A stretch of 64,000 nt of DNA, from the NCBI GenBank assembly GCA_030765065.1, contig CM060980.1:62976364-63040363 (forward strand), in the 5' to 3' direction. Every line of letters begins with the position of its first letter. Within the stretch, counting starts at the first letter, position 1. Origin of the DNA: Deroplatys truncata (taxonomy: Eukaryota > Arthropoda > Insecta > Mantodea > Mantidae). The position numbers and the translations under genes are program-made. Positions 7,865-61,605 of the stretch are shown piece after piece. Under the pieces are notes generated by a model. It worked only from the letters and a program-made list of their open reading frames with translations, had not been told where the DNA came from and searched no databases.

Positions 7865-9181
7865 CGAGGTGTGATCAAAAATTTCCGGAATGGCTTCACA
7901 ACAATGCTGACGCTGAGATTTCTTTAATTCTTACCCAGACTGTACATGCAGCGTTCCTTCCCGGTAAAAAATGAGACTTCCTGTGACCATGCAGTGACGA
8001 GGTAGACGTTCTGAAGTGAACACGTGTTTTGCGTGTGCTGTGATTTTTCCGCGTAGCAAAAATGTTAGATTACGAAGAACAAAGAACGAACATCAACTTT
8101 TGCTTTAAACTCGGTAAAACTGCAACAGAAGCCTATGAAATGTTAAGAACAGCTTATGGGGAGGACGTTATGGGCAAAACTCAACCATTTGAGTGGTTTT
8201 CGAAATTTAAAAGTAGTGTGACATCAGTTAAAGATGCAGATCGTTTGGGGCGACCCTGTTCCAGCAAAACTGATGAAAATATCAATCAGGTGAGGGAAAT
8301 GGTAAATGATAGGCGCATTACAATAAGAGAACTTTCTGACTCATTAGGACTCTCCTTTGGAAGTGTTCAAAGCATTTTGAAAGACAATTTGGACATGAGA
8401 AGAATTGCCGCCAAGTTCGTGCCCCGCCTGCTTTCAAATGACCAAAAGGAAAGCCGTGTGATTGCCTGCACAGATCTTAAAGAACAGCTACAAAATGACC
8501 CACAGTTTATGGAGAAAATTATTACTGGTGATGAAACATGGATTTATGGGTACGGTACAGAAACGAAGCAACAATCTTACAATGGAAGAGTCCATCTCCA
8601 CGCCCGAAAAAGTCCAGACAAGTTCGATCGAAAGTGAAGTCAACGATGATTGTGTTTTTTGACATCAAAGGCATTGTACATAAGGAATTTGTGCCACAGG
8701 GTCAAACAGTGAATCAAGTGTCCTACAAACAAGTGCTGCAAAGATTAAGGGAGAATGTGCGACGCAAACGGCCGGAGAAATGGAGGAGTGGTGATCGGTT
8801 CCCGCATCATGACAATGCGCCCGCTCACGAAGCCCTTTCTGTTCGCCAATTTTTGGATAAAAATAGGATGAATACTGTTCCCCATTCCACCTATTCTCCA
8901 GATTTGGCACCAGCGGACTTTATTCTTTTCCCGCGAACTAAAATGCGGCTCCGAGGACAGCGTTTTGAGGACATTGATGTCATCCGCCGCGAGTCGCAGA
9001 AGGCTCTGATTATGTTGAAAGAAGAGGACTTCCAGAAGTGCTTCCAGCAGTGGCAGAAACGCTGGGACAAGTGTATCAACTCCAAAGGAGACTACTTCGA
9101 AGGTTACAGTGCAGATTAGACAAAACAAACTGTTGTGTAGTATTTATGACGACATTCCGGAAACTTTTTGATCACACCTCG
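7865..9181 (+). mobile_element. mariner transposon, full-length with terminal inverted repeats
   Basis: The 1.32 kb element is bounded by 28-29 bp inverted repeats beginning CGAGGTGTGATCAAAAA at 7,865 and ending TTTTTGATCACACCTCG at 9,181. The left repeat lacks one base of the right one. A TA follows the right end; the left flank now reads CA, so the duplicated TA has decayed on that side. Inside is a single transposase gene with one frameshift. Confidence 0.9.
8062..9119 (+). pseudogene. mariner transposase (DD34D), one frameshift
   Basis: This enzyme cuts the element out and inserts it at TA sites. The N-terminal part (8,062 to about 8,575) has the paired helix-turn-helix region, including WFSKFKSS and ELSDSLGLSFGSVQSIL, and the first catalytic aspartate in ITGDETWIYGY. 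The second part, in another frame from about 8,575 to the stop at 9,119, has the second aspartate in HHDNAPAH and the third in YSPDLAPADF. The spacing between the last two is exactly 34 residues, the mariner signature. The two parts overlap near 8,538-8,637, which fits a single small indel around 8,575-8,585. Length is close to the usual 345 or so residues. All three catalytic residues survive, so the copy is young but inactive. Confidence 0.9.
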
Positions 9182-27091: not shown

Positions 27092-28467
27092 CACTGCCGT
27101 TTGTGAAAATTGCAACACCAAGAAAGAATTTTCCGAATAACTCTAAACTTGGTGGAAGTGTAGAAGAGTGTGCTAGCGATAAGTGATTAGGTTTGCAAAG
27201 AGATGGGGTAAACGTAGGCCGGGCAGAGTCCTCTCGTGTCGGTCCGACAAGGTCAATGTTGCACCCAGTGCACAGCTGTCAAACAAATTGGAACAATTCA
27301 GTAGGTGCCAGTATGCCTCGTCGACGTCAATATCGGCATGTGAGTGAGTTCGAACGGGGCAGAATGATCGGTCTCCGGGAAGCGGGTTTGTCATACCGTG
27401 ATATTTCGGCTCGTTCAGGGCATGCTGCTACACCAATGATGCGTGTGTGGAAGCAGTGGATAGATGAAGGTCGTACGCAGCGAAGAGCGGGTACTGGACC
27501 ACGAAACATGACCACAGCGCGAGATGACCGTTATGTTGTCCGCATGGCCATAACGGACCGTACAGCTTCATCCACAGTGTTGGCTGGACGCTGAAGCAGT
27601 GCAACAGTTGTGGACTTGTCTGCATCAACGGTTCGTCGCCGTCTACTGCAGGTTGGCTGGTTGCATGCATGCCATTACGTCGGCTTCCATTGTCCAGAAA
27701 CCACAAGCTCCTCACACTGCAATGGGCACATGGACACCGTCACTAGGGTGCTGAGTGGCAAAATGTAGTCTTTTCGGACGAGTCCCGCTTGAACGTGTTC
27801 TACAGTGATGATCGCATACGTGTCCGGCGGTACCGTTATGAGCGCAACCTGGAGGGCTGCATTGTTAAGCGGCATAGCGGACAAACACCAGATGTGATGG
27901 TTTGGGGCGCCATTGATTATAACAACCTATCTCGCCTCCTACGAATTGAGGGCACTTTGAACAGCAACCGCTACCTTGTAGAGCCAGAGGTACTCCCCCT
28001 GCTTCAGACATCTACACAGGCCACATTTCAGCACGACAATGCCCGGCCACAAATTGTGAGGAATGTACAAGCCTTCTTCGAAGAGCGACGGGTACCATTG
28101 CTTCCCTGGCCTGCACGTTCGCCTGACATGCGGCTCATCGAACATGTCTGGGATGTGGTTAATCGGCACCTGGTGCGTCACGGTCCTCTAGTAACCAGTG
28201 TCACGGATTTGTGGGCTCGAATACAAACTGCGTGGAGGGAAATTCCTCAGGAACTTATTCAGAATCTTTTTGATTCAATGCCACGGCGTATAGCAGCTCT
28301 AATTGCAGCCCATGGAGGCCACAATAAATACTGAATATTAGGGCTCAAAGGTCATGTATAGATTTGAAAGGTTTATCATTTGTTACTTGTCATGTACCGA
28401 AGTGGTATTAAATTCATTGAATTCATGCGTTTCGTTCTGGGTGTTGCAATTTTCACAAACGGCAGTG
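27092..28467 (+). mobile_element. Tc1-like transposon with TA duplication
   Basis: The 1.38 kb element starts CACTGCCGTTTGTGAAAATT at 27,092 and ends with the exact inverted complement at 28,467. A TA lies immediately outside each end (27,090-27,091 and 28,468-28,469). It holds one dead transposase gene. The surroundings are A+T-rich while the element is about half G+C, so it is clearly foreign to its context. Confidence 0.93.
27313..28334 (+). pseudogene. Tc1-family transposase (DD34E), disabled by stops
   Basis: The gene starts at the ATG of MPRRRQYRHVSEFERGRM (27,313). It has a paired helix-turn-helix DNA-binding region (LREAGLSYRDISARSG). An in-frame TGA at 27,592 ends the first open part, and a TAG lies near 27,745. 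Beyond it the frame is open to 28,334. Catalytic residues are all visible: VFSDES near 27,770, QHDNARPQ near 28,030 and RLIEHVWD near 28,135. The last two are separated by 34 residues, which defines Tc1. The C-terminus SMPRRIAALIAAHGGHNKY is intact. Total length would be about 340 residues, normal for the family. Confidence 0.9.
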
Positions 28468-45062: not shown

Positions 45063-45157
45063 ACATTTAAATTTGAAGGTGTAGCGTCTTAAGAATAATA
45101 ATATTGCTTGTTGGACTTAAAAACAAACTGCTAACGTTTGAATCTATGCTAGTAGGT

Positions 45158-45163
45158 TATATA
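45158..45163. other. Target-site duplication (left), TATATA
   Basis: Six bases identical to 60,375-60,380, immediately outside the Polinton termini. Six bases is the known duplication length of Polintons. The low complexity of TATATA leaves some room for chance. Confidence 0.8.
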
Positions 45164-47015
45164 AGACAGACCTGGGCCAGTTTTTTGCGTTTATATGGGA
45201 AAGGATAGGGAAAACGAGGGAAGATGCTAGGCTAGGAGAGCATCCAAGGAGGAAAAATGCGTTTATATGGGGGAGATAGGGATTACGAGGAGAGTTGTCA
45301 GGCTAGACAGGGTTGAAAGGGTAGAATGCACGTTTTATACTGAAGAGATAGGGATTACAAGGTTAGATGTCAACTAGACAGGAGTTGAAAGGTTGGAATA
45401 TATGCTTTATAAGGGAAAGGATAGGGAAAACGAGGGGAGATGCTAGGATAGACAGAGGTTGAAGTAGGAGGAATATGCTTTATATGAGAGTGGTAGGGAA
45501 TACGAGGAGAAGTGCTAGGCTAGTCAGAGGTCGAGTAGAGTATACAATTATATACGAAAAATAGGGAGTAGATGATAATGCTAGGCAGGTACTGAAGAAG
45601 GGAGAGTATGCGTTTATATGAGAGAGATAGGGAATACGGGGAGAAATGCTAGGGAAAACAGGGACTGAAGGTATGTAGGGTGTTTTTCCAGAAGGGAAGA
45701 GTAAGAATTTCAGAGGTATTTAGAGCACAATATAACTATTTTAGAACACACTTAGAAGCTTTTTAGGCACATGTTTATCTAACTTTGCAGGTATGCTGAC
45801 GATGTTTTAATGTGGTAGAACAGCCATTTGACATCCTCTTACTGGCCTTAAAATATTTTTAGACATAGATACAGATACGTGTTTTAGGGTATTGGTGTAA
45901 GCATTTTAGCCAGTGTACTAGGAATTGTGGAGAATTTTAGGGTTCATTTAGAGACATTTTAGGTACAGGTACAGATATTTTTTTGATATGAACAAGGCTT
46001 TCAGGACATTCTGGTATGAGGCAGGGGAATTTTAGATGTTTCAGCAGCATTTGGGGAACTGGAGCAGGTAGATTCAGGGTATTCATATAGGCTTCAGAAT
46101 ATTTCGAGGTGTTTTATGATGCTTTTAAGGTATTTTGACAATTTTCAAGACGTTTTCAAAGCTCGTGCTAGAAGTGTTTGTGGCTCTTTAAAGGTATTTG
46201 AGGTTATGGATGGGGCATAGGCGCAGACCATAAAGAGTTCCTGAAGGGACTTTTGGAAAGTGTAGTGGGTGTTTTATCGGCTTTTGGATAAGTGTAGGGG
46301 CTGTTTTATAGGCTTTTGGAAAGAGTAGTAGGTGTTTTATCGGCTTTTGGATAAGTGTAGTGGCTGTTTTATTGGCTTTTGGAAAGTGTAGTGGCTGTTT
46401 TATAGGCTTTGGAAAGAGTAGTGACTGTTTTATCGGCTTTTGAATAAGTGTAGTGGATGTTTTGTCGGCTTTTGGATAAGTGTAGTGACTGTTTATTGGC
46501 TTTTGGTAAATGTAGTGGCTGTTTTTATGAGGGCTTTTGGGAAATGGTTTTCAGGCATTCTCTCTTGTTTATAGAGTTTTTCTCTTGTATTACACAGGTC
46601 TTATGATCTATAACCATTTCTAACGTTTTTACAGTCATATCGGATCCTTTTATGGTCTTCTCAATATTCTAATGCTACCATGTATGAAAGTATGTAGAGA
46701 TGCCTTTTATAACCCAACCTTAAGCTCTGATAGTGATATTGTTTTTATTCAGCTTTTCTGTTTTTGCATGGTTAATTGTTGGTTAGGTGTATCGTCTTTA
46801 CCAGTTAATTGATGCTTTATTAGGTAAGGATTGTAAGGGTAGGTGCCTCTCCCCTTTTATCTAGGCTTGAGACTAGCACTAGGATTTGCTCCTAATGGCA
46901 GGGTTACCACCTCCCTTCCACATTATTTTTATTTATTCTTAGGTGTCTGCTAGATGTATACACAGTACATGGCAAACTTCCACTTTTTAAAGTTGTAGAA
47001 TCACGAGAAAATTAT
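45164..47015. repeat. Polinton left terminal inverted repeat
   Basis: About 1.85 kb, pairing with the right repeat along its length. The outer part (45,164-45,660) has imperfect roughly 70-bp tandem units around AGGGAAAACGAGG and GCTAGGCTAG. The middle (45,680-46,240) is unique. Then come the 31-bp minisatellite (46,245-46,545) and an inner segment to about 47,015 that includes GTATACACAGTACATGGC. Divergence from the right arm is visible in most lines. Confidence 0.85.
46245..46545. repeat. 31-bp minisatellite in left terminal repeat
   Basis: About ten units of the form GGCTTTTGGAAAGTGTAGTG plus GCTGTTTTAT. The right arm has about six units at 57,940-58,130. Confidence 0.85.
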
Positions 47016-47059
47016 CATCTAAGGATTAGATTCTCTTAGGCACTGCTTGTAATGCTGTA

Positions 47060-50000
47060 ATGGCCATATGCATATGTCGTTATTCCATCCTCAGCAACGA
47101 CTCTTTTATCGTCGTATGGAGTCAATGCAATTTTATTCACTTGCACTGTGGTAACAGTATGTTTTCGTTACAGGATCAGATTCATGGGTGTCCTTATTAT
47201 TTCTCTGGCTTTAAGACAGTCTGTATAACTGTCGAATGTGATGTGCTGCTAAATAGCGCCACGTTTTATAACTTTAATCTTTTTTATGATTGAGCCGTGG
47301 ATATCTAGCGCATACATCTTAGGTCGCAGTCTGACAAAGCGTTGGATGATTTTACCATTAGCCTCATCTTTAAATTTTCCAAGCACTTTCTTGTTTAGAG
47401 CTGAATAGCATATATGGTTTGTAGGATAATCAGCCGTATCCAGATGCTCAAGAAAACGTAGCTTGTCCTTGTACACATCTTCAGTTGTAACTTGATGGAT
47501 GAATGAATCAGTGTCCATATACATCAGCTTCAGGTTTTCAACTCCATAATGCGGTAACAACACATCATAATGATAGTGGTACATTAATGTCTTGGAGATG
47601 TCCAACACACTCATTCCAATGTATATAGGCTTGTTGAAGACGATCTGTCGGGAGGCCATATGCACAGCAGCTAGATTGGTAGCATATATTGTTCGATCGA
47701 TAAACGTAGGCTTTGCAATTAACTTTTCCAGAGTCTTCTCGTTTGTTTCACCAACCGTATATCCACACGATTACGAAGGTTCTCCAATGTTTTTCCAAAC
47801 ATAGCATTGTTGAACAGTTTGTAGAGATCCTTCTCAAAATCATTTGCAGCCTTTTGTCGTAGTCTGTTGTTAAATTCCACATACGGTTTTAACCACTGTG
47901 ACTGTCAGAATTGTAGCACACGATGGATTTTTGTTAGTTGTAGTCCATGACTAAGAGCTTGCTTCAAAGTCATGTAATGCACTACATACTTCTTTCGTAA
48001 TCCAAGGTGAGGAATTAACTTCTTTGTAGTAGACTCCTTTGGTTTCTGACACTCAGGCAGGAATGGTAAATCATTATGCAGATCATGGAGTTCAACAGGA
48101 TACTCGATGTCAACTTCTAATATGTATCCATGAGGATCATCTTCTTCCAGTCTTTGTAAGTTTATTTCTTCAGGTGAAACCCACTGAAATCCACCAAAAG
48201 GAAGGGCGTGACACATTGCCCACCCATATTGGTTATTAGCGTCCTCATATGTGATGAATTGGGTTGGTCTCGACGGATCAAACTTTTCCATGTAAGTGTT
48301 ATTAGCCTCTGCATACCGATGGGACACTTGGCATAAACCTCCTCTTATGCCGGATTCCACCATGAGTAGTTGGTCATAATCCTGTAACAGTTCCAGTTCG
48401 ATTCCAGTATACAGTAACATGGCGTCCCATGTACGTCCTGGAGAGGTAAAATAATGTGCTGGATCAACTTTGTGCGTTTTGAGAGTTTGCTCTCTGAATG
48501 TCTCAAAGACATCAGCTAGAAGAAGAACATCAGATATTAAGTAGAGGTCACTGTATTCACCCAGGTTTCTCACATTGAACAGTCTCCATACATTTCCAGC
48601 ATGTTCGTAGTCAGCATCACTAATTTCTTCTTCATTCAGTTTATTGTAGAAGTAGTTCTTAGGAGGCAGGCAGGTATCGTTCAAGACGTCCCATGAAGTG
48701 ACGTAATCATAGGGAAATACACCCTTACGTGTCATCAACTTCATCCTGTCTTCTCCGAAGTACTTCAATGTTTCAGGGTACGATGCTAGATTTTTTACCA
48801 GCTTATCCAAGCTTGTACTCAGGAACCGAAAACTATCTACAAAACGGAGCTTTATATCTCCTACATACTTGGAGAATGAGATATAGCTTTCTTCAGAGTT
48901 AGGAATTACCTCCACACGTTCACTTGTACATCCCAACTCCTTAACAATGAAGTGTGAGTCATACCCACTGAGGTTGTGCATGAAGACAGGAATATATTTA
49001 GGCGTTTTACAGGCTAAATTGCATTCATTATGAAGACTTCCCCGATATTCACCACTGATGTGATCATGGTCGCGTACTTTATAGTTCACTTCTGTAAAGG
49101 GTTTTCCACACAAGTAGCATACTATAGAAGACTCAAAATCCTTTTGCTGTTGATCTGTAAGTTTCAGGGGCATGACAGATTTGTATATATTATTAATCTC
49201 CTTTGCAAGGAATGACAGGTATTCCATAAACTTCTGAGCAGCATCAACACCACGATATACATAGGGATGCTTAGGAAGACTAGTTTCCAGATGTTCAACG
49301 CTGGTTGATGGTTTAACGTAAACACAGAAGCTCATTGCTGTATGCTCTTGATAAGGGGTTGTATAAGAAGTTTCAGGACTGGGTATGCATGTATGACATG
49401 GAGTGAGAATGCTTTCAAAGTCTGCATAGATGACGTAAGGTAGTTTCAACATCCTTTCAAAATTTTTAAACTGTACAATTGATTTTTCCTTTGTAGGCAT
49501 AACTACCCTTGCAACACCATGCTGATTACAGATAGATGCATGTTCTTGCAGTTTTTCCAGACCACTTCGTCCATACTGATTGTCAAAGTGAGTAAAGCAC
49601 CGCTTGCAGGTATATATCACTCCATCATGCTTAGTTTTCTGACGTCGAACGAGCTTCTCAAAATTCTTGATATATACATAGTGATGTTTTCCACTACTAT
49701 CACTCAATAGTAGGAGGTCACGGTGGTCAGGTAGCTCAGTGCCAGCAACCTTTATCGGATACACTTCATGCTTCTCATCCAATCCGAAAACGTTGATAGA
49801 CATCCTATTAAGCTTCTCAAATTTAGGTATTTGAGAAAGTGGAGTAGGATAGGAAACGCAGCTGAAGTCGTACTTATCTTGAAGCTGTTTGTATTTACTG
49901 ACGCGTTGAGGCTTGGTGCTGACGAATTTGGCCAATACAGAATATATAAAACATTGTTCATCCTTATAGTTTTGGATGTTAATGCAGGCTTTCCTTGCTT

Positions 50001-50694
50001 CAATAGATGGCGGTAGGGGTATGTAGCTACTGCCTCGTAAGGGGTTGTACTTGTTAATACGAAGGCGCACCCCTTCCACAGCAAGCAGAGCCCAGCTGCT
50101 TCCCTTCAGTTGTGAATCCTCCATTTCAGTAACCAACTTCTTCATTTTCGTTTCCAGCATAGAGTCCAGATCCGTTTCTAAGAATGCAGCTTGATTCCGT
50201 GTTTTAAATGTTTTGTCACAGGTTTCTCCGATACTGTTTACAAATCGGCACTCAACCAGCAGATTAATTTTCACACTCTTGTGAATACCAAGCTCTTTAT
50301 GCACTGCCTGGATTATTCGTTGTTTGGCCTCATGCAGGTACATATTCAAGTCCTTAGATGAATCGAATCGTATAAAATACGATTTCAATCGTCCTTCGAA
50401 CGCTGTCTCGTACTCTTTCATGTCACAGCCCTCCATTGTGGATAATATGTGATGTTTGGTAGGCTCCAATCTGCTTTTCTTCTGAGGACTGCTTATTTCA
50501 CATACGTCCTCGTGCCGCTGTCCCTTATAACCATCATTAAAGGTTACATTACAATGTTTACATTTGAAGAGCTTCTTGCAGCTCATCTCGTGTCTTCTCT
50601 TGTCATAACTTCGGAGGAATTCCTTTCTACATTTACTACAAGCGTATCCAGTAGCGCTTGGAATAATATCCTTATACGCTGAGTTATTCATCAT
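47060..50694 (-). pseudogene. Protein-primed family B DNA polymerase of Polinton (pPolB), inactivated
   Basis: The replicative polymerase copies the linear element from protein-primed ends. The main open part is 929 codons (50,694 to 47,905). Residues 17-65 hold two zinc-finger-like motifs (CSKC...H...C and CKHC...H...C). The 3'-5' exonuclease motifs follow: YADFES near 423, NLSGYDSHF near 575 and YLISDVLLLADVFE near 723. A CxxC/DHDH insertion lies near 526-545, and palm motif A (YEDANNQYGWAM) near 820. An in-frame TGA at 47,905 stops it. Motif B lies just beyond, a frameshift falls near 47,760, and motif C (YMDTDSF, near 47,515) is in a separate 138-codon frame (47,665-47,249). Residual C-terminal similarity continues in a third frame to about 47,060. 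With only three or so lesions in about 1,200 codons, inactivation looks fairly recent. Confidence 0.92.
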
Positions 50695-50846
50695 TATTCT
50701 TGATGCAATAACGTATTAATCCTTCTTCAAGGGAAATGTAGACCTTTTTGCCTTGATAACACTTTAGAAAGCTGATTATTCTTGGAGAGAACGCGATGTT
50801 AACACCGCAAGACTAATTAGCGCAATGAAGTCCAGTGTCGCGGTCA

Positions 50847-50860
50847 CCCTATTTATAAAG
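50847..50860 (-). promoter_or_regulatory. Candidate TATA box of the pPolB gene
   Basis: On the minus strand, CTTTATAAATAGGG lies about 155 bases before the polymerase ATG (50,694). That would give a leader of roughly 125 bases. No other TATA-like element lies between them. Confidence 0.5.
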
Positions 50861-51007
50861 GTAGCACGAACCTTTTAGATCAATTATATACTGAATGTTA
50901 ATAATAAAACGATGATTAAGCGTCTAAACTCTTATATCTCAATACGTTACACAGGTATTCGGACGTTTCCGTAGGTGTTCGAACATGTTCGGGTGTTTGG
51001 AGAGGTG

Positions 51008-51483
51008 TTCGAATGTGTTGTGTATGTCTGCGTATGTATCTGTGTGTGTATGTGTTTTGAACTGTCTCGGGGTGTGCGTGTCTGTGTGTGTGTGTGTGTG
51101 TGTCTGTGTGTATGTGTGTATGTCTATGCGCGTCTGTGTGTATGTTTATGTGAGTGTGTTTTGAACTGTCTCTATGCGTGTGTATGTGTGTGTACGTCTA
51201 TGTGTGTGCGTGTCTGTGTGTGTATATGTCTGTGTGTGTATCTGTGTGTGCCGGTGTGTGTGTCTGTGTGTGTGTGTGTGTCCGTGCGTGTGTCTGTGTG
51301 TATGTCTCTGTGTGTGCGTGTGTGTATCTGTGTGTGAGTCTGTGTGTATGTGTGTGTATGTCAGTGTGTGTGTCCGCGCGTGTGTGTGTGTGTGAGTCTG
51401 TGTGTTTACGTCTGTGTGTGTGTGGGGGGGCGTGTGTGTGTGTGTGAGTCTGTGTGTTTGTCTGTGTGTGTGTGCGGGTGTGG
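51008..51483. repeat. (TG)n-rich tract, left border of internal inverted repeat
   Basis: Irregular GTGTGTCTGTGTGTATG runs with two TTTTGAACTGTCTC blocks (51,054 and 51,158). Frames rich in valine and cysteine here are artefacts. Confidence 0.95.
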
Positions 51484-52248
51484 GTGCTGATCAAGAAGAA
51501 GAAAGGAATAAAGTAGAAAGGAAGAAGGAAAGAGAGAAAGAAGAAAAAAAAGAAAGAAAATTAAGAATTTTAATTCAGACCTGAGGATACTTAAGTATAC
51601 TTATAAATATATGGGTTAAACACTTTTTATTCCAGCCGTATATGTCTCCTAGTTTAATATTTATGAACCATTAAATTTTTATAAAGATTCGAACAGGGAC
51701 CATAGGTTACCTAAGTACATATCACGGTTTAACACAGATAATGAATTACATCTAATAAATACATTTTTGATCCGTCCATACAACTCCCTTAGTTTAATAG
51801 CTATTGATCATTAAATATTTTGCTCTAAGATAATAGTAAAAAATTAATCCTTAAACAGCTTGATTACAATTATTTTCTAATGATACCTGAAAAGTCTTTC
51901 ACTAAGCCTCTTAGTGCTATAAACTTATTCTGATTTTACCATATTTGTCTAAGTCTTTTAACTCATTAAGAATTAACCATTTAGGTTTTACCGATTCGAG
52001 GTCGGATATGAACTTCGGACTCCTAAATAGTTGTTCAGAGAATCTATCCACTGCTATCAATTTAATGTAATTTGTTCGAAGAGTCTAGCTGCCCTACTTC
52101 GGGAATAATGAAACATCAAAGTTTAAAACTCTGGCGAGACTCGAACTCCGGTCCCTAGAGATATCTTTCCGTAACTAATCAATAATACAGAACTATGTGA
52201 ATCCTTGTTGATGCTAAAAGGGCATAAAGTCAGTAGTACACAATGAGA
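51484..52248. repeat. Internal inverted repeat, left core arm
   Basis: About 765 bp whose inverted complement is 53,373-54,137. I counted only a handful of differences on reading through (for example near 51,893, 52,132 and 52,175), so identity is around 98 percent. It contains a purine-rich block (51,491-51,560). It also contains the complement of a tRNA-like B box (GACTCGAACTCCGG, 52,138-52,151). Confidence 0.93.
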
Positions 52249-52250
52249 CC

Positions 52251-52605
52251 TTCTGGATCAATTTATGGCTTTTTAATTGGCTTAATTGATTTAAATTGGC
52301 TGTAATTGGTCTTTCATGTAAGTCCGACCTAAGTACATGATACCTTCTGGATCAATTTATGGCTTTTTAATTGGTTCACATGGTTCATTTGGTCTTTCAT
52401 GTAAGCCCGACCTAAAGCACATGGGGTTTCTGGATCAATTTATGGCTTTTTAATTGGTTCACTTGGTTCACTTGGTCTTTCATGTAAGCCCGACCTAAAG
52501 CACATGGGGTTTCTGGATCAATTTATGGCTTTTTAATTGGTTCAATTGGTCTTTCAGGCAAAGGGGACCTATAGTGCATGAGTCTTCTGGATCAAATTTA
52601 TGGTT
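52251..52605. repeat. Minisatellite, five units of 74-94 bp
   Basis: Each unit starts TTCTGGATCAATTTATGGCT and ends with GTCTTTCATGTAAG plus CGACCTAAAG. Starts are at 52,251, 52,345, 52,428, 52,511 and 52,585. Confidence 0.9.
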
Positions 52606-53372
52606 ACTGGCGATTTGACAGTTTGTCATTCCCGACCACGTGGAGGGCTTTACTTCAAGAAGCATATAAAGGCTCGCTCCTCGGCTTTGGGTGGGAGGAG
52701 GTAATCAAAATAATGTCTGCATTTCCAGTCAGCTATGAGACATGATTCACCCACTATAAAGTACACAGCGTTAATTCTAATCATATACATCAAATAAAAA
52801 ATACAAGTTAAAATCGAAAGGTTTAATTTTCACCATCCTACCGGGACTTGTTGCTTTGAACGGGTCGATAACACGCTAGTGTTATCCGCTAAAATGCAAC
52901 AGGAGGGTTCTGAAAGTTATCGTAGAAATGGCTAGTATACGATGTTCGCTAACTAAAGCACACCTCTTTATTACAATGAGAAATTTCGCAAATTAGAATC
53001 ACAAGCGATGAAAAAATATTAGAATATTTAGCTTTAAAGGTTAACAAGCGTCACTCTGTACTTAAATACCCTGATAAGAACGCTAAACCTTCTGTAAGCG
53101 GTATAGAAGAATGAGAAACTCAGTATACCAATTTTTGGAGCACAGACTATACAGCCCCGCATGTTATTGCCTGGAGGGGGGAGAACCCTTCTGTATACAA
53201 TTTAGCTGCTATTGTGTCCGAGCTTCGCCTTAGTGGCTTCTCCACATGTCTTGTTAAAAGGTCCAGCGTACATTTCTCCGAATCGTTCTAAAAACGTCGA
53301 TATTTACCAAGAAAATAATTTTAATAACTAGAACTACAAATAGATATCGCTACCAAGAATTGATACTTCACA
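52606..53372. other. Unique centre of the Polinton, no recognised gene
   Basis: A plus-strand TATA-like CATATAAAGG at 52,663 is followed by a ten-codon frame only. A 44-codon open stretch near 52,980-53,115 (SDEKILEYLALKVNKRHSVL) may be a relic of a lost Polinton gene, but I cannot assign it. Confidence 0.4.
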
Positions 53373-54137
53373 TCTCATTGTATACTACTGACTTTATGCC
53401 CTTTTAGCATCAACAAGGATTCACATAGTTCTGTATTATTGATTACTTACGGAAAGATATCTCTAGGGACCGGAGTTCGAGTCTCGCCATAGTTTTAAAC
53501 TTTGATGTTTCATTATTCCCGAAGTAGGGCAGCTAGACTCTTCGAACAAATTACATTAAATTGATAGCAGTGGATAGATTCTCTGAACAACTATTTAGGA
53601 GTCCGAAGTTCATATCCGACCTCGAATCGGTAAAACCTAAATGGTTAATTCTTAATGAGTTAAAAGGCTTAGACAAATATGGTAAAATCAGAATAAGTTT
53701 ATAGCACTAAGAGGCTTAGTGAAGGACGTTTCAGGTATCATTAGAAAATAATTGTAATCAAGCTATTTAAGGATTAATTTTTTACTATTATCTTAGAGCA
53801 AAATATTTAATGATCAATAGCTATTAAACTAAGGGAGTTGTATGGACGGATCAAAAATGTATTTATTAGATGTAATTCATTATCTGTGTTAAACCGTGAT
53901 ATGTACTTAGGTAACCTATGGTCCCTGTTCGAATCTTTATAAAAATTTAATGGTTCATAAATATTAAACTAGGAGACATATACGGCTGGAATAAAAAGTG
54001 TTTAACCCATATATTTATAAGTATACTTAAGTATCCTCAGGTCTGAATTAAAATTCTTAATTTTCTTTCTTTTTTTTCTTCTTTCTCTCTTTCCTTCTTC
54101 CTTTCTACTTTATTCCTTTCTTCTTCTTGATCAGCAC
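53373..54137. repeat. Internal inverted repeat, right core arm
   Basis: Inverted complement of 51,484-52,248. The tRNA-like segment is on the plus strand here, around 53,424-53,490 (GGAGTTCGAGTCTCGCC). The T stem pairs over only three bases, so it is not called a tRNA gene. Confidence 0.93.
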
Positions 54138-54795
54138 CCACACCCGCACACACAGACATAAACACACAGACTCACACACACACACGCCCCCCCGCACACA
54201 CACAGACATAAACACACAGACTCACACACACATACACACACACGCGGGCACACACACTGACATACACACACATACACACAGACTCACACACAGATACACA
54301 CACACACACACGCACACAGAGACATACACACAGACACACACACGGACACACACACACAGACACACGCATACACACAGACTCACACACAGATACACACACA
54401 CGCACAGACACGCACAGATACACACATACACACACGCAGACACACACACCCACACACACACAGGCACACACAGATACACACACACAGACATATACACACA
54501 CATACACACAGACTCACACACAGATACACACACGGACACACACAGGCACACACAGATACACACACAGACACGCACACACATAGAGACAGTTCAAAACACT
54601 CACAGCCATAAACACACAGACTCACACACACGCACACACATACATACACACAGACACACACACGGACACCCACACACAGACACACACACACAGACTCACA
54701 TACAGATACACACACACACAAACACACACACAGACACATACACACACAGACACGCACAGACATACACACACGCAGAGACAGTTCAAAACGCTCTA
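54138..54795. repeat. (CA)n-rich tract, right border of internal inverted repeat
   Basis: Mirrors the TG tract at 51,008-51,483, including two GAGACAGTTCAAAAC blocks (54,584 and 54,775). It is about 180 bp longer than its partner. The threonine/histidine-rich frame of 237 codons is an artefact. Confidence 0.95.
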
Positions 54796-54869
54796 ATAGA
54801 GATATCCACTGGAGCTTATAGGTACGTGGCTCTGTTATAATATAGCTTCATATGTGAGAGGCTCTGTCT

Positions 54870-55560
54870 TTAGATGATTGTATTGATTAATGTAGCGGTG
54901 AAGATGACGGGAATTGCGGGATTAGGGAGCTATGGTATTAATGGAGTTATGTGTTGGCGGGGCGAGAGTGTAGAGTTATGGTGTTAATGGAGGCCATTGA
55001 CGGTGGTGGCAATATAACGTTATGGTGTAATTGGAAGTAGTGGTATTTGTGATGGTGGTGATAGGGAGATGGTTATAGCATTGGTGGTATTGGAAGTAAT
55101 AGTGGTGGTGAAAGTGCGGAGTTATGATACAAATAGGTGTGTAGGAGTAATGGTGATAATGGTGATGGTGGGAATTGCGGGATAACTAGTTATGGTGTTA
55201 GTGGAGTAATGTGGTGGCGGTGGCGAAAGTGTAGACTTAGGGTGTTAATGGAGGCATATGCCGGTGGTGCCAATATAAGGTTATGGCGTAATTGGGAGTA
55301 GTGGTGCTTGTGATGGTAGTGATAGGGTCATGGTGCTGGTTATAAAGTTGGTGGTTTTGCAAATGATGGCGGTGGTGACAGTATAGAGTTATGCTGTTAA
55401 TGGAGACATGGTGGCGGTGATAGTATAAGGTTATGTTGTAATTGAAGGCGGGGGTGTTTATGATGGTGGTGATAGGCATGATGGTGATGGTTATTGTGAT
55501 GATTGTTTTTTGGAAATGGTGGTAGTGATGACAGAGGTGGTGGTCATTGTTTAGATGCTG
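54870..55560. repeat. GGT/GAT-rich imperfect tandem repeat, period about 262 bp
   Basis: The block starting GAATTGCGGGAT at about 54,911 recurs at about 55,173, and the AGTGTAGAGTTATGGTGTTA segment recurs with it. About 2.5 copies, internally rich in GGTGGT and GATGGT. Confidence 0.75.
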
Positions 55561-55865
55561 ATACATGTCCTGTTATGTGTATAGAAGGGCACACGTTTAT
55601 TACAAAGAAATACATGAACACTGTACAATATAGTGGGCTGCTAAGAGTAGCAAAGAAATATTTTTAATAGGTTTCAACGTTCTTGAAATATCTGATAATA
55701 GAATGGTTATGAGGCATGGGACTATGAGTGTGGACATGAGAAATATGGTCGCAGAGGGTGTTGAATTCCTGTAAAAGCATTCAAGGTTCTTGATTTAAGG
55801 AGACATTTGTGTGGTGTATGGATCCAGCAAGGCTATGATAGGTTATCCATTCAGCCGATAAGAGG

Positions 55866-56010
55866 GTTCTAGGTTACGCTAGAAAGGGAAATGGCAGCAT
55901 AGAATGGCTTGTGTAAAGGCAGTTTAGGCAAGCTTCTAGGTTACGCTAGGGCGGGTGATGACAAAATAGGATAGCTTGGGTAAAGTCAGTTTAGGCTAAC
56001 CTGGGTGAGG
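55866..56010. repeat. About 67-bp tandem repeat, two units
   Basis: TAGGTTACGCTAG occurs at about 55,870 and 55,938, each followed by a similar GGCAGTTTAGGC or GTCAGTTTAGGC block. Confidence 0.65.
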
Positions 56011-56890
56011 TTCTGATAGGGTACCTTAGATAATTAGCGAGTGGTCGAGCTTATAGCTTTTTGTTTATGACCAGCTGAATGGGTGATGAGACGACTGTTG
56101 ACTAAGATTGGTCTAGGTTTACGTGCACTCATTCAAGCTAGATTAGGTGATAGCAGGCTGGATGTGAAGTCTGCTTATACTATTTTCGCTAGGTTAGGGT
56201 ATTCAGAGCTAGCTTAGGACTGGATTGTTGGACAGATTATAAGGAATGGTATCAGATTGTGTTAGATTATTACTGGACAGAATGCCTATTGTTAGGATAG
56301 TCTGGGATAGGCAGAGTTAGGCTTACATGATTATTCGAGTTTGAAGAATGGTTTGCAAGACTGAGGCATTAGTTCTAAGTATGTTGAACTTACAATGGTG
56401 CTGTAGTAATGGCTGCTGAGAAAGGCTTCTTTGTACAAATTATCTCTTTCTACATTGTTATATGCAACATTAAACCTTGTGTTATTGCATGGTTCTGTTA
56501 GCATAGATTGTCTTGGGAATAGGTCGTTATGATTATCACGTATGGTTACGTTTCCTGGTTGCGTTAGAGGATTACAGAATGGAATAGACAATGAGAAGAT
56601 GATTCAGGGCAGGATGATCGGTGAGCGGGTAAGGTAGGGTAGTTTAGAATACTTCTACATTCACTAAAACTGTAAATCGATATACAGTTTATCCCTCTCG
56701 GTCTCATAGCTTATCTCCTCAAGATATATAAGTTTGTAGAAATTTAAAAAAAAGGTGTTTTAAAAGTATATAAAAGCGTTCTAACACTGCATAATAAATG
56801 TTCGTGAGGCATTAAACTATGTGCAGAAATATATCAAGTCCTGAAACCTGAATAAATACGTGGGTGAATACCTGATTTACTCATAAAATT
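56011..56890. other. Polinton interior without recognised gene
   Basis: TAG-rich, low-complexity. An 86-codon minus frame at 56,331-56,591 is unrecognised. Confidence 0.4.
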
Positions 56891-56899
56891 TCACAAAAT

Positions 56900-57450
56900 G
56901 TTTTAAAAGCTTGCGACAGTGCCTGATTAGTTGCTAAAGTACATTTAAAGCTGCTCAACTACTCCTGGAATAAGCTTTGAAAATGTCTGAAAAGGGTTGA
57001 AATACTTTGAGGCAATAGCATACAATACCTTTTAAGTGCTAAACAAAAACCTCAATCATTCTAAACACCCCCAGCATACTCTAAAATCATGTGTCAATAC
57101 CCCAAAAATAACCGCTAAAGTTTCTAAAGAACCGTTCAGAGTACTCTAAAAGCCTGAGTTCATGCCGCATCCATAGTCCACAATACGTTCAAAGAGCCTT
57201 AAATACTCCTACCAGTATCCTGAAAATACCTTATAGATGTTAAAATATCTTAAAATCAACATAAAACACCTCGAAATATTCCTAAACATCTTAGAACCTG
57301 TATCAATACTTTGAAAAGGTCCACTTCCAATCTCCAGAATGCTATTGAAACACCTGAAATTATCATTCCAGTATGTTAGAATGTTCTAAAAGCCTGTACT
57401 CATACCTGATACCACAAGCTGAAATACCTTTAAATAGTCACAAATATGCA
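56900..57450. repeat. Diverged tandem copies of part of the right terminal repeat
   Basis: The segment at 57,160-57,420 matches 58,165-58,390 in the same orientation (GCCGCATCCATAGTCC, AAACACCTCGAAATATTCC, and the order of weaker motifs). The segment at 56,945-57,015 matches 58,190-58,255 (GAGCTTTGAAAACG-like). A further weak start is at 57,425. Confidence 0.6.
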
Positions 57451-57939
57451 CATGAAAACTTTGGAAAGGGATACCCTCGGAAGTGTTGCATTACTTCAAA
57501 AATGGAAGCTTACCCATGTGCTGTGTATACACCTAGCAGATACCTAAAGAATAAATAAAAATAGGCGCTAACCCTGCTATTAGGTGTAAATCATAGTGCT
57601 AGTCTCAAGCCTAGATAAAAGGGGGGGCCAGGCACCTACCCTTACAACCCTTATCTAATAAAGCATCAATTATCTGGTAAAGACGATACACCTAGCCAAC
57701 AATTAACATACAAAAAAAAACATAAAAGCTGAATAAAAACAATATCACTAACTGAGCCTAAGGTCGAGTTAGAAAAGGCATCTCTACATACTTACACACA
57801 TGGTAGCATTAGAATATTGAAAAGGCCATAAAAGGATCCGATATGACTGTAAAAAACGTTAGAAATGGTTATAGATCATAAGACCTGTGTAATAGAAGAG
57901 AAAAACTCTATAAACAAGAGAGAATGCCTGAAAACCATT

Positions 57940-58130
57940 TCCCCAAAAGCCCACCAGGAACTCTAAGGGCATAAAAATAGCCACTGCACTTTCCAAAAGT
58001 CCATAAAAACAGCCACTACATTTACCAAAAGCCAATAAAACAGCCACTACTCTTTCCAAAAGCCGATAAAATAGCCCACTACACTTATCCAAAAGCCGAC
58101 AAACAGCCACTACACTTATCTAAAAGCCCC
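57940..58130. repeat. 31-bp minisatellite in right terminal repeat
   Basis: About six units of AAAACAGCCACTAC plus TTTCCAAAAGCC, the inverted partner of 46,245-46,545. Confidence 0.8.
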
Positions 58131-58899
58131 TTCAGGAACTCTTAATGGTCTGTGCCTATGCCACATCCATAACCTAAAATACCTTTAAAGAGCCACAAAC
58201 ACTCCTAGCACGAGCTTTGAAAACGTCTTGAAAATTGTCAAAATACCTTAAAAGCATCATAAAACACCTCGAAATATTCCGAAGCCTATATGAATACCCT
58301 GAATCTACCTGTTCCAGTTCCCTAAATGCTGCTGAAACTTCTAAAATTTCCCTGCCTCATACCAGAATGTCCTGAAAGCCTTGTTCATATCAAAAAAATA
58401 TCTGTACCTGTGCTTAAAATGTCTCTAAATGAACTCTAAAATGCTCCACAATTCCTAGTACACTGGCTAAAATGCTTACACCAATACCCTAAAACACGTA
58501 TCTGTATCTATGTCTAAAAATATTTTAAAGCCAGTAAGAGGATGTCAAATGGCTGTTCTACCGCATTAAAACATCATCAGAATACCTGCAAAGTTATCTA
58601 AGCATGTGCCTAAAAAGCTTCTAAGTGTGTTCTAAAATAGTTATATTGTGCTCTAAATACCTCTGAAATTCTTACTCTTCCCTTCTGGAAAAACACCCTA
58701 CATACCTTCAGTCCCTGTCTTCCCTAGCATTTCTCCCAGTATCCCCTACCTCTCATAAAGCGCATTCCTCCTGCCTCCCCCTCTAGCTGAGTATTACTCC
58801 TTGGGTTCCTATCTAACCTAACTTTAACACCTGTCTATCCTAGCATAGGATCTCTCTCCGTTTTCTCGTCTCTCCTTATAAACACATACTCAATTCTCC

Positions 58900-60010
58900 T
58901 AACCTAACACCCCTCCTCCTGTTCCTAACCTCTCTCATATAAAGGACATACTCTACCCTTCAACTCTGTCTAGCCTAACACTCCTCCTCGTTTTCCTATA
59001 CCATTCATATAAACCATACTCTACTTCTTGACCTCTGTCTAGTCTAACACCCCTGCTCCTGTTCCCTACCTCTCTCATATACAAGACATGCTCTGCCCTT
59101 CAACTCTGTCTAGCCTAACACCCCTCCTCGTTTTCCTATACCTTTCATATAAACCCTACTCTACTTCTTGACCTCTGCCTAGCCTAACACCCCTGCTCCT
59201 GTTCCCTAGCTCTCTCATATACAAGACATGCTCTGCCCTTCAACTCTGTCTAGCCTAACACCCCTCCTCGTTTTCCTATACCTTTCATATAAACCATACT
59301 CTACTTCTTGACCTCTGTCTAGCCTAACACCCCTGCTCCTGTTCCCTACCCCTCTCATATACAAGACATGCTCTACCCTTCAACTCTGTCTAGCCTAACA
59401 CCCCTCCTCGTTTTCCTATACCTTTCATATAAACCATACTCTACTTCTTGATCTCTGCCTAGCCTAACACCTCTGCTCCTGTTCCCTACCTCTCTCATAT
59501 ACAAGACATGCTCTGCCCTTCAACTCTGTCTAGCCTAACACCCCTCCTCGTTTTCCTATACCTTTCATATAAACCATACTCTACTTCTTGATCTCTGCCT
59601 AGCCTAACACCTCTGCTCCTGTTCCCTACCTCTCTCATATACAAGACATGCTCTGCCCTTCAACTCTGTCTAGCCTAACACCCCTCCTCGTTTTCCTATA
59701 CCTTTCATATAAACCATACTCTACTTCTTGACCTCTGCCTAGCCTAACACCTCTCCTCGTTTTCCTATACCTTTCATATAAACCCTACTCTACTTCTTGA
59801 CCTCTGTCTAGCCTAACACCCCTGCTCCTGTTCCCTACCCCTCTCATATACAAGACATGCTCTACCCTTCAACTCTGTCTAGCCTAACACCCCTGCTCCT
59901 GTTCCCTACCTCTCTCATATACAAGACATGCTCTACCCTTCAACTCTGTCTAGCCTAACACCTCTCCTCGTTTTCCTATACCTTTCATATAAACCATACT
60001 CTACTCGACC
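58900..60010. repeat. 140-bp higher-order tandem array
   Basis: CCTCCTCGTTTTCCTATACC recurs at 58,984, 59,124, 59,264, 59,404, 59,544 and 59,684, exactly 140 bases apart. Further units follow at 59,754 and 59,964 (offsets of 70 and 210). Each 140-bp unit is two related roughly 70-bp halves sharing TGTCTAGCCTAACA. Confidence 0.93.
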
Positions 60011-60374
60011 TCTGACTAGCCTAGCGCTTCTCCTCGTATTCCCTGCTACTCTCATATAAAGCACATTCCTCCTACTTCAACCTCTGTCTATCCTGGCATC
60101 TCCCCTCGTTTTCCCTATCCTTTCCCTTATAAAGCATATATTCAGACCTTTCAAACCCTGTCTAGTCGACATCTAACCTTGTAATCCCTATCTCTTCAGT
60201 ATAAAACGTGCATTCTACCCTTTCAACCCTGTCTAGCCTGACAACTCTCCTCGTAATCCCTATCTCCCCCATATAAACGCATTTTTCCTCCTTGGATGCT
60301 CTCCTAGCCTAGCATCTTCCCTCGTTTTCCCTATCTTTTCCTATATAAACGCAAAAACTGGCCCAGGTCTGTCT

Positions 60375-60380
60375 TATATA
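60375..60380. other. Target-site duplication (right), TATATA
   Basis: Matches 45,158-45,163. Confidence 0.8.
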
Positions 60381-61605
60381 TTCTACTTATGCTGGGCACA
60401 GTGATTACTTACTTGACGAGTGTACAAGAGGTCGCGTTCTTTTCTTTCTTTGGCAACAGCTTTCGTCCATCTGTCCCGTGGCTTGGGGGTATATATTACA
60501 GCGTAATGGTTCTACAAGGTTGTCATGGCAATGAGCAGCGAGGTTGCCACGAAATTAGTTTTGCTCGCCAAGGAACTATAGTGCACACATATATAACTGG
60601 TAATACTGTTCTATTGTAACATACTTTATTTTATTACTATATTAAATTCACGCATTCACTTCTATATTTGTTACACTCAGCCTACAGCTTGTTAATTTTT
60701 GTATGTTAATGGTGAATTAAAGGGGAAATGAGGCATTTCAGCGACATAGATAGCGACAGACATATTTCCTCTTATCCTTAGGTAAAAATGCAACATTTTC
60801 ATAATACAGTCATTAGTATTAATTCACAACGTGTATTCTTTTCATGGATACTGTTAAGAGTGTGTTGCAATTTACTTGGAAGGGTACGTAACACATGAAA
60901 GTGAGAATCATTGCAGCTGGAATGATGTTGATTTTTGGTCTCTTATGAAAAAGTCCTTGCACCATGTATGGGCTTAGTACACAACTGAAGTTGCGTTTGT
61001 CTTTATTGCTTCTCTTGTACGTCAGTGACAATAAAGACTTGAATTTACTTTGTGTGCAGCCAGATGAGGAGTGAAAACTAAATTAAGAAAAACATAGGAA
61101 AGTCACAATAAACGCAGTCGTCGGAATTGCCCATGTAATTGTGTGTACTCTAAGCCTTGATTTACAAAGCGGACTATTTAGACTGCGAGCAGACTAAGAG
61201 CTCTGTGTAGTGGAGTAATTTCTGACTCAATTAATTTGCTTTGTGCTAGTTTCGCCAACTCCCATTACCTTTGGCTTTCTGTTCGGCTTTCTCTCCGACT
61301 TTCAGCGTCATTCTGTTGTTCCATGGTTTATAGTTATTGCATTTTAATTTTGGAAGAAGACAATTTCCATATAGAAATGCTTCCCTGACTGTTCAATAAG
61401 TCTTAACCAATAATATCTCTTATGGAAATCGGTAGAGCGGTGGTAGGAATTTAAGCTACTCCGTGCTACAACACAGCCGTAACTCGCCAAGACTATGGAA
61501 GTAAATTAGTGTTTGATTCCTATCACGGCTGGCCTATAGGGACACTATTGCGATGGTTTTCTGTAAGCAAGTGGATTTCTACAGTAACTGATTAGGCTTC
61601 TATAC
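60381..61605. other. Mostly non-coding flank of the Polinton
   Basis: It contains a weak tRNA-like head near 61,430 (GGTAGAGCGGTGG) with a possible B box near 61,515 (TTTGATTCCTATC), perhaps a SINE remnant. Confidence 0.4.

Follow-up and report, generated by a model that had tools for sequence, protein, structure and literature searches.

In a 64,000-nucleotide stretch of the mantis Deroplatys truncata genome (hereafter the window; contig CM060980.1, C6:62976364-63040363 of a 4.29 Gb source genome) lies a 15.2 kb element that a preliminary description had taken for a Polinton that kept only its DNA polymerase. We conclude, with a probability that we put at roughly 0.6, that the element is a hybrid member of a large palindromic, polymerase-only family derived from insect-type Mavericks (Polintons), which would replicate by folding back on itself and be inserted by an integrase supplied in trans. 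The surprise lies in a palindrome that spans the whole element and has a polymerase in each arm.

Results

Architecture of the family

Members of the family are giant palindromes, mostly 13-17 kb in length, with arms of up to about 7.5 kb around a spacer; the inverted repeats make up most of the element, which is therefore foldback or palindromic in form. When left and right halves were aligned, inverted arms were recovered in 10/10 fetched elements. Six of these first ten carried the polymerase in both halves in opposite orientation (the copy at C1:163 Mb partly so) and four had no polymerase; in two further fetched elements both arms held the gene, which in one of these elements is frame-shifted. 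The polymerase gene is thus present in each arm, facing outward from the centre, in 8/12 fetched elements. In two polymerase-bearing copies, arms of 6.3 kb (99.3% identity) and 7.5 kb (99.0%) enclose spacers of 1.4 and 1.0 kb, respectively; three others have arms of 7.0 kb (96.2%), 6.8 kb (99.6%) and 3.1 kb (97.0%), and in a sixth an alignment of 9.5 kb ran through the centre. Polymerase-less arms measured 3.9, 4.4 and 6.0 kb, and one was in pieces of 1.3 and 3.9 kb.

The same layout is seen genome-wide. Among the best 49 polymerase matches (those scored of 25097 candidates), 40 form 20 inverted (-,+) pairs, with 1.8-5.5 kb between the matched parts. In contrast, 76 loci of other PolB_2 families (scored of 11882 candidates; PF03175) yielded a single pair less than 40 kb apart, the two open frames being unequal in length. 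Many open frames of those other families are about 1261 to 1315 codons long, and the scored loci are not in inverted pairs; at C4:11089823-11107213, two polymerase matches lie 16 kb apart on opposite strands, with unequal open-frame lengths.

We also compared eight spacers. The spacer at C14:172 Mb is inverted with respect to those of the window, C7:274, C16:62 and C5:61, and that at C14:3.6 Mb aligns with C7:274 in the inverted and with C16:62 in either orientation. If the two halves are equivalent, a spacer in both orientations is expected.

Kinship of the two arms

The left and right polymerase copies were sisters in 8/8 elements and 99.5-100% alike within an element, as if the arms had been remade from one another. 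This tree omits C7:305 (1283 nt, below the length cut) and includes a partial right arm of C1:163 (1446 nt). On a tree of an outer-arm segment, left and right arms were sisters in 12/13 elements. Stretches of kilobases are identical between the arms of some copies, in a comparison of 11 elements (of the 12 for which both arms were fetched, C1:163 was omitted).

The polymerase and the search for other genes

In the window, positions 47908-50715 on the minus strand matched the Pfam families DNA_pol_B_2 (E 1.1e-16) and Endonuclease_7 (E 1.8e-5). The gene is predicted to encode a B-family polymerase (PolB) of the protein-primed type: ExoI-III and motifs A-C were found by exact pattern in full-length frames, in the order ExoI, EndoVII/HNH segment, ExoII, ExoIII and motifs A, B and C, and some copies depart from the exact patterns. 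An open frame of 1225 codons is reported for 41 of the best 49 polymerase matches; 42 of the 49 have no stop within the matched part and 7 have at least one. Premature stops of a similar kind, not necessarily at the same codon, occur in both arms of the copies at C4:146.05 and C4:154.28 Mb, and the pair at C22:1.85 Mb has stops in one arm only. DNA_pol_B_2 was not reported for the 1225-aa frame of locus L010, though a near-identical stretch in the window scores 1e-16, and we take this to be a filter effect.

The ratio of nonsynonymous to synonymous substitution (dN/dS) in PolB had a median of 0.175 and a range of 0.12-0.35 (36 pairs from nine elements). The sample comprised one arm per element, or 9/17 rows, with stops and gapped codons skipped, and it includes the frame-shifted arm of C7:137 and the stop-bearing arm of C1:163. 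These ratios indicate that PolB is under purifying selection, and the gene has therefore stayed functional during the spread of the family.

No integrase was found among 19 open reading frames (ORFs) scanned against Pfam, which came from the window and other elements (7 + 2 + 10) and do not cover every ORF or copy. Within the same limits, neither these ORFs nor an ORF survey of ten fetched elements revealed a packaging ATPase, an adenain-like protease or a capsid gene in the sampled copies; the non-PolB ORFs of at least 110 aa in those ten were mostly of low complexity or lay in the flanks. Seven other ORFs of the window copy had no Pfam match at E<=1; not every six-frame fragment of its interior was searched, and short decayed pieces could escape. 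Rfam and tRNA scans of the window returned nothing, as did an NCBIfam search. A PDB sequence search with PolB gave weak zinc-finger matches only, and of three pattern matches among viral contigs none was a relative. The earlier claim of a polymerase without any other detected gene was therefore borne out in the sampled copies. So was the idea of a polymerase-only lineage: the layout is common to other copies, and no related copy with a full gene set turned up.

Copy number, ends and target duplications

The first 1101 nt of the left repeat had 43 matches in the genome (40 of 5918 first-look candidates scored). The 19-nt end sequence occurred exactly 39 times forward and 38 times reverse, its reversed control 0 and 0 times; with up to two mismatches the counts were 577 and 581, against 47 and 46 for the control, which points to a family of roughly 500 copies. 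The exact ends formed 29 inward-facing pairs at a median distance of 14.8 kb, 23/29 of them 13-17 kb apart, and no outward-facing pairs within 40 kb. Of the 20 ends in ten fetched elements, 18 matched AGTAGGTTATATAAGACAG with no more than four differences. Termini in the family are of the form AG...CT, beginning AGTAG; one end reads AATAG.

An exact 6-bp target-site duplication (TSD) flanks 27/30 elements; the other three match at 5/6 positions, and 0/30 reach 7 bp. This set consists of the window copy, 8 of 10 fetched pairs, 19 exact-end pairs and two small copies described below, and omits two fetched pairs in which the left end motif was not found and five further exact-end pairs. The 27 exact TSDs have a weak palindromic preference, with A in 17 at position 2, C in 16 at position 3, G in 13 at position 4 and T in 13 at position 5. 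A weakly palindromic 6-bp target is as expected for an integrase.

As one unusual case, the copy at C1:163.3 Mb (left end at L013, right end at L014) has a left end in which about 27 nt are missing from the start of the repeat, and the GCCGTG beside its right end also directly precedes this shortened left end. The copy is possibly an insertion from a shortened end.

The window copy

The features of the window copy are as follows (positions within the window; strand where assigned).

45145-45150: left copy of the TSD, TATGCT
45151-60387: whole element, ends AGTAGG...CTACT, from the end motif common to other copies
45151-46993, plus: left terminal inverted repeat (TIR), the non-coding outer arm, with 32-bp tandem repeats at 46250-46525
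47252-47770, minus: PolB piece with motif C, in a different frame
47722-47904, minus: PolB piece with motif B, after the stop codon
47908-50715, minus: main PolB stop-to-stop stretch of 936 codons, with ExoI, EndoVII/HNH, ExoII, ExoIII and motif A
50716-52248: left arm, inner part, with a GT-rich array at 51014-51486
52249-53372: central spacer (loop) of the palindrome, homologous to the spacers of other copies and inverted relative to at least one
53373-54604: right arm, inner part, an inverted repeat of 51045-52248
54605-57492: interior of polymerase-less type, like four sampled polymerase-less copies by sequence comparison
57493-60387, minus: right TIR, including a 140-bp tandem array at 58898-60124
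60388-60393: right copy of the TSD, TATGCT

The preliminary description had placed a complete element at 45164-60374. The element is real and bounded by inverted repeats, but those borders fall 13 bp short of the true ones. A 6-bp duplication is likewise present, but as TATGCT rather than the TATATA first proposed: because TATATA is seen inside the end repeat of other copies (for example L009/L010, L011/L012 and L019/L020), it belongs to the repeat and not to the duplication. The polymerase that had been noted is a genuine PolB with a DNA_pol_B_2 match, but in this copy it is broken, a stop ending the long frame and the remainder lying in two shorter pieces with the frame changed. The terminal repeats are longer than first described, at about 1.8 kb on the left and about 2.9 kb on the right, where the array of nearly nine 140-bp units enlarges the repeat; the left TIR has no such array.

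The two arms are of different kinds. The left arm is of the polymerase type, sharing 99.75% identity over 2808 nt with the copy at C7:274.85 Mb. Where the gene would be, the right arm has a 2.9 kb stretch of which 78-90% is covered by the four sampled polymerase-less copies; identity is about 94% along 1.4 kb of it and 73-86% in the rest. The window copy is also the sole exception to the sisterhood of left and right arms on the outer-segment tree of 13 elements: its right arm is 95.0% identical to its own left arm and 96.6% identical to the nearest other arm. From this combination of arm types and tree position, we conclude that the window copy is a hybrid, with one arm of the polymerase-bearing type and one of the polymerase-less type.

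The internal inverted repeat (51045-52248 with 53373-54604; 92.7% identity) is the inner part of the whole-element palindrome. Two earlier interpretations of the interior were not supported. Its repeats had been attributed to an expansion of ends and replication signals, but they form the arms of a palindrome in which the polymerase is often present twice. The stretch at 54605-57492, once regarded as the space of missing genes, resembles the interior of polymerase-less sister copies.

Elsewhere in the window, Mariner-type transposase fragments (HTH_48, Transposase_1) lie at 8062-9119 and a DDE_3 transposase fragment at 27789-28334.

Small copies and candidate helpers

Two small copies bear on what is needed for movement. 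One, of 2.2 kb, consists of one arm and a 100-nt inverted end and has an exact 6-bp duplication; the other, of 208 bp, has little beyond the two ends, with flanking bases that match at 5/6 positions. Short ends therefore seem to be sufficient for movement. The copy at C7:305.5 Mb (L034 with L033; C7:305492302-305501501) retains nothing but its right half, and the cut lies 39 bp short of the inner-arm end. Because TCTGTT, the 6 bp beside its right end, is absent at the cut, this half copy is probably a truncation; it is possibly a one-ended insertion.

We considered an 18.5 kb copy (C2:4730638-4749151) as a candidate for a full Maverick and set it aside, as a 1.5 kb sample from its middle had no match in the window element or in the seven loci to which it was compared. 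A Pox_A32-like ATPase occurs at 38 places in the source genome and Phospholip_A2_4 at 150 places scored of 2852 candidates, dozens of these 150 having the same score and a 224-aa open frame. At locus L038 an ATPase, a PLA2-like frame and a weak adenain-like frame (E 0.0045, below the cut-off) are adjacent. The genome is thus heavily loaded with genes of ordinary Maverick type, and the uniformity among the scored Phospholip_A2_4 places suggests a recent burst.

Discussion

A proposed model of fold-back replication

A polymerase-bearing copy is an inverted dimer that reads end, outer repeat, outward-facing PolB, inner arm, a spacer of about 1-1.8 kb and then the mirror image. We propose that the B-family polymerase of the element copies it as a linear DNA, probably by protein priming. 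The displaced strand would fold back over most of its length, and this hairpin would join or re-copy two half-elements, which would keep the arms alike. An integrase from ordinary Mavericks of the same genome would then insert the product in trans by way of its two like ends. In the window copy, two unlike halves would have been joined, one with PolB and one without.

Several observations weigh against this model. Protein priming and the hairpin intermediate are steps that we infer. Among the arms compared, none could be identified as the donor of the right arm in the window copy. PolB identity between elements ranges from 94.6 to 99.8%, and at the top of this range the window and C7:274 (99.75%) exceed the lowest value within an element. 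By plain identity, the outer segment favours an element's own arm in 10/13 elements, and over the outermost 393 nt the identity to the own arm is highest in only 7/13. Differences between arms are also uneven, at 63/12867 positions in the outer repeat and 33/25725 in PolB (Fisher p 1.2e-10; seven elements, C1:163 omitted, with the left arm of C16:656 starting 84 nt inside the repeat, here as in the 11-element comparison). Arms that were identical at insertion and then drifted neutrally cannot explain this difference, and selection on both gene copies in active life, or gene conversion that prefers the interior, may act as well. With regard to helpers, no integrase-bearing copy with family ends was found among the sampled copies, and 0/38 ATPase places and 0/150 PLA2 places lie within 30 kb of 100 listed family ends. 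The early suggestion of mobilisation in trans fits the polymerase-less and 208-bp copies, but because no listed helper gene lies near a listed end, mobilisation by resident Mavericks is plausible and not more.

Other explanations

A palindrome might instead be inherited through cut-and-paste or integrase-driven copying, its arms kept alike by chromosomal gene conversion, as in sex-chromosome palindromes, with no fold-back replication. The closer likeness of the PolB arms than of the outer repeats favours this account, as do the arms that are identical over kilobases, and a spacer found in both orientations is compatible with gene conversion and fold-back alike. However, 12/12 fetched non-window elements show own-arm kinship on the outer-segment tree, so that efficient conversion would be needed at every site; we hold this account to be possible and rather unlikely. 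An element made autonomous by its one gene, in which PolB with the EndoVII/HNH segment between ExoI and ExoII would copy, cut and join the ends, seems to us improbable. PolB is the sole gene found in the sampled copies, it matches EndoVII, and it carries the signature of purifying selection. The 6-bp duplication and weakly palindromic target nevertheless resemble the work of an integrase, and the combination of EndoVII (weak, E 0.02 and 0.32) with PolB2 is also reported for integrase-bearing Mavericks (PMC5803895).

Palindromes are hard to assemble, and consensus errors could raise the identity of their interiors. An origin of the inverted duplications in unsplit reads or mis-joins is nevertheless very unlikely: the flanks differ on the two sides and carry matching 6-bp duplications (exact in 27/30), the arms differ by 0.5% in the outer repeat, spacers are present, and the other PolB families give only a single near pair at 76 scored loci of the same assembly. 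An ordinary Polinton that decayed, lost its other genes and received an unrelated nested inverted-repeat transposon is scarcely credible. The window copy considered alone, with its interrupted polymerase and internal inverted repeat, would allow such a history, but in the sampled sisters that share its ends PolB is present in both arms or absent from both, the great majority of the best polymerase matches are paired, and the internal repeat corresponds to the inner arm of the palindrome.

Relation to known systems

Foldback-type and long-TIR DNA transposons have very long inverted repeats around a loop and encode ordinary transposases and are not known to encode a B-family polymerase; the palindromic family shares their repeats and loop and differs in its enzyme. 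Snapback or defective genomes of protein-primed linear DNAs, like the self-complementary genomes of parvoviruses, are inverted dimers of one genome end. They are replication by-products or constructs, whereas here we are concerned with a chromosomal family of several hundred copies. Polintons make 6-bp target duplications and have 5'-AG...CT-3' termini, and the palindromic family has both.

The family further resembles Polintons in its TIRs and in a B-family polymerase with EndoVII and PolB2 domains (PMC5803895). In the Mavericks described from Spodoptera (Sf) cells, a polymerase with PolB2 and weak EndoVII domains lies beside genes for an integrase, an ATPase, a protease and a PLA2-type capsid (PMC5803895). 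The palindromic family differs in having no integrase, ATPase, protease or capsid gene in the sampled copies, and in inverted repeats that span most of the element, with a PolB in each arm of polymerase-bearing copies. Bidnaviruses such as Bombyx mori bidensovirus are described as having a PolB of polintovirus descent, TIRs, a proposed protein-primed replication and panhandle single strands (PMC4061559, PMC4938981). PolB and TIRs are thus common to both, but bidnaviruses have capsid and other genes, and their TIRs are not said to span the genome. Searches of the open-access literature turned up no palindromic polymerase-only element, which is a weak statement.

Implications

It has been proposed that Mavericks are ancestral or related to several groups of eukaryotic viruses. 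In a lineage that consists of a polymerase and two ends, numbers roughly 500 copies as counted from those ends and is under selection, replication is separated from packaging and integration. We tentatively raise, at odds well below even, the further idea that the true genome is a single half (one end, one polymerase gene and one loop) in the form of a self-complementary hairpin, of which the chromosomal palindrome would be the dimer, copied round the loop because the integrase needs two ends. If this is true, the family would be a one-gene, self-complementary, virus-like transposon with satellites of its own, the polymerase-less and 208-bp copies. Fold-back replication in a PolB element may have left a natural record in this mirror-image layout, and, once the uneven divergence of gene and repeat is explained, the difference between the two gene copies of each polymerase-bearing element may serve almost as a clock.

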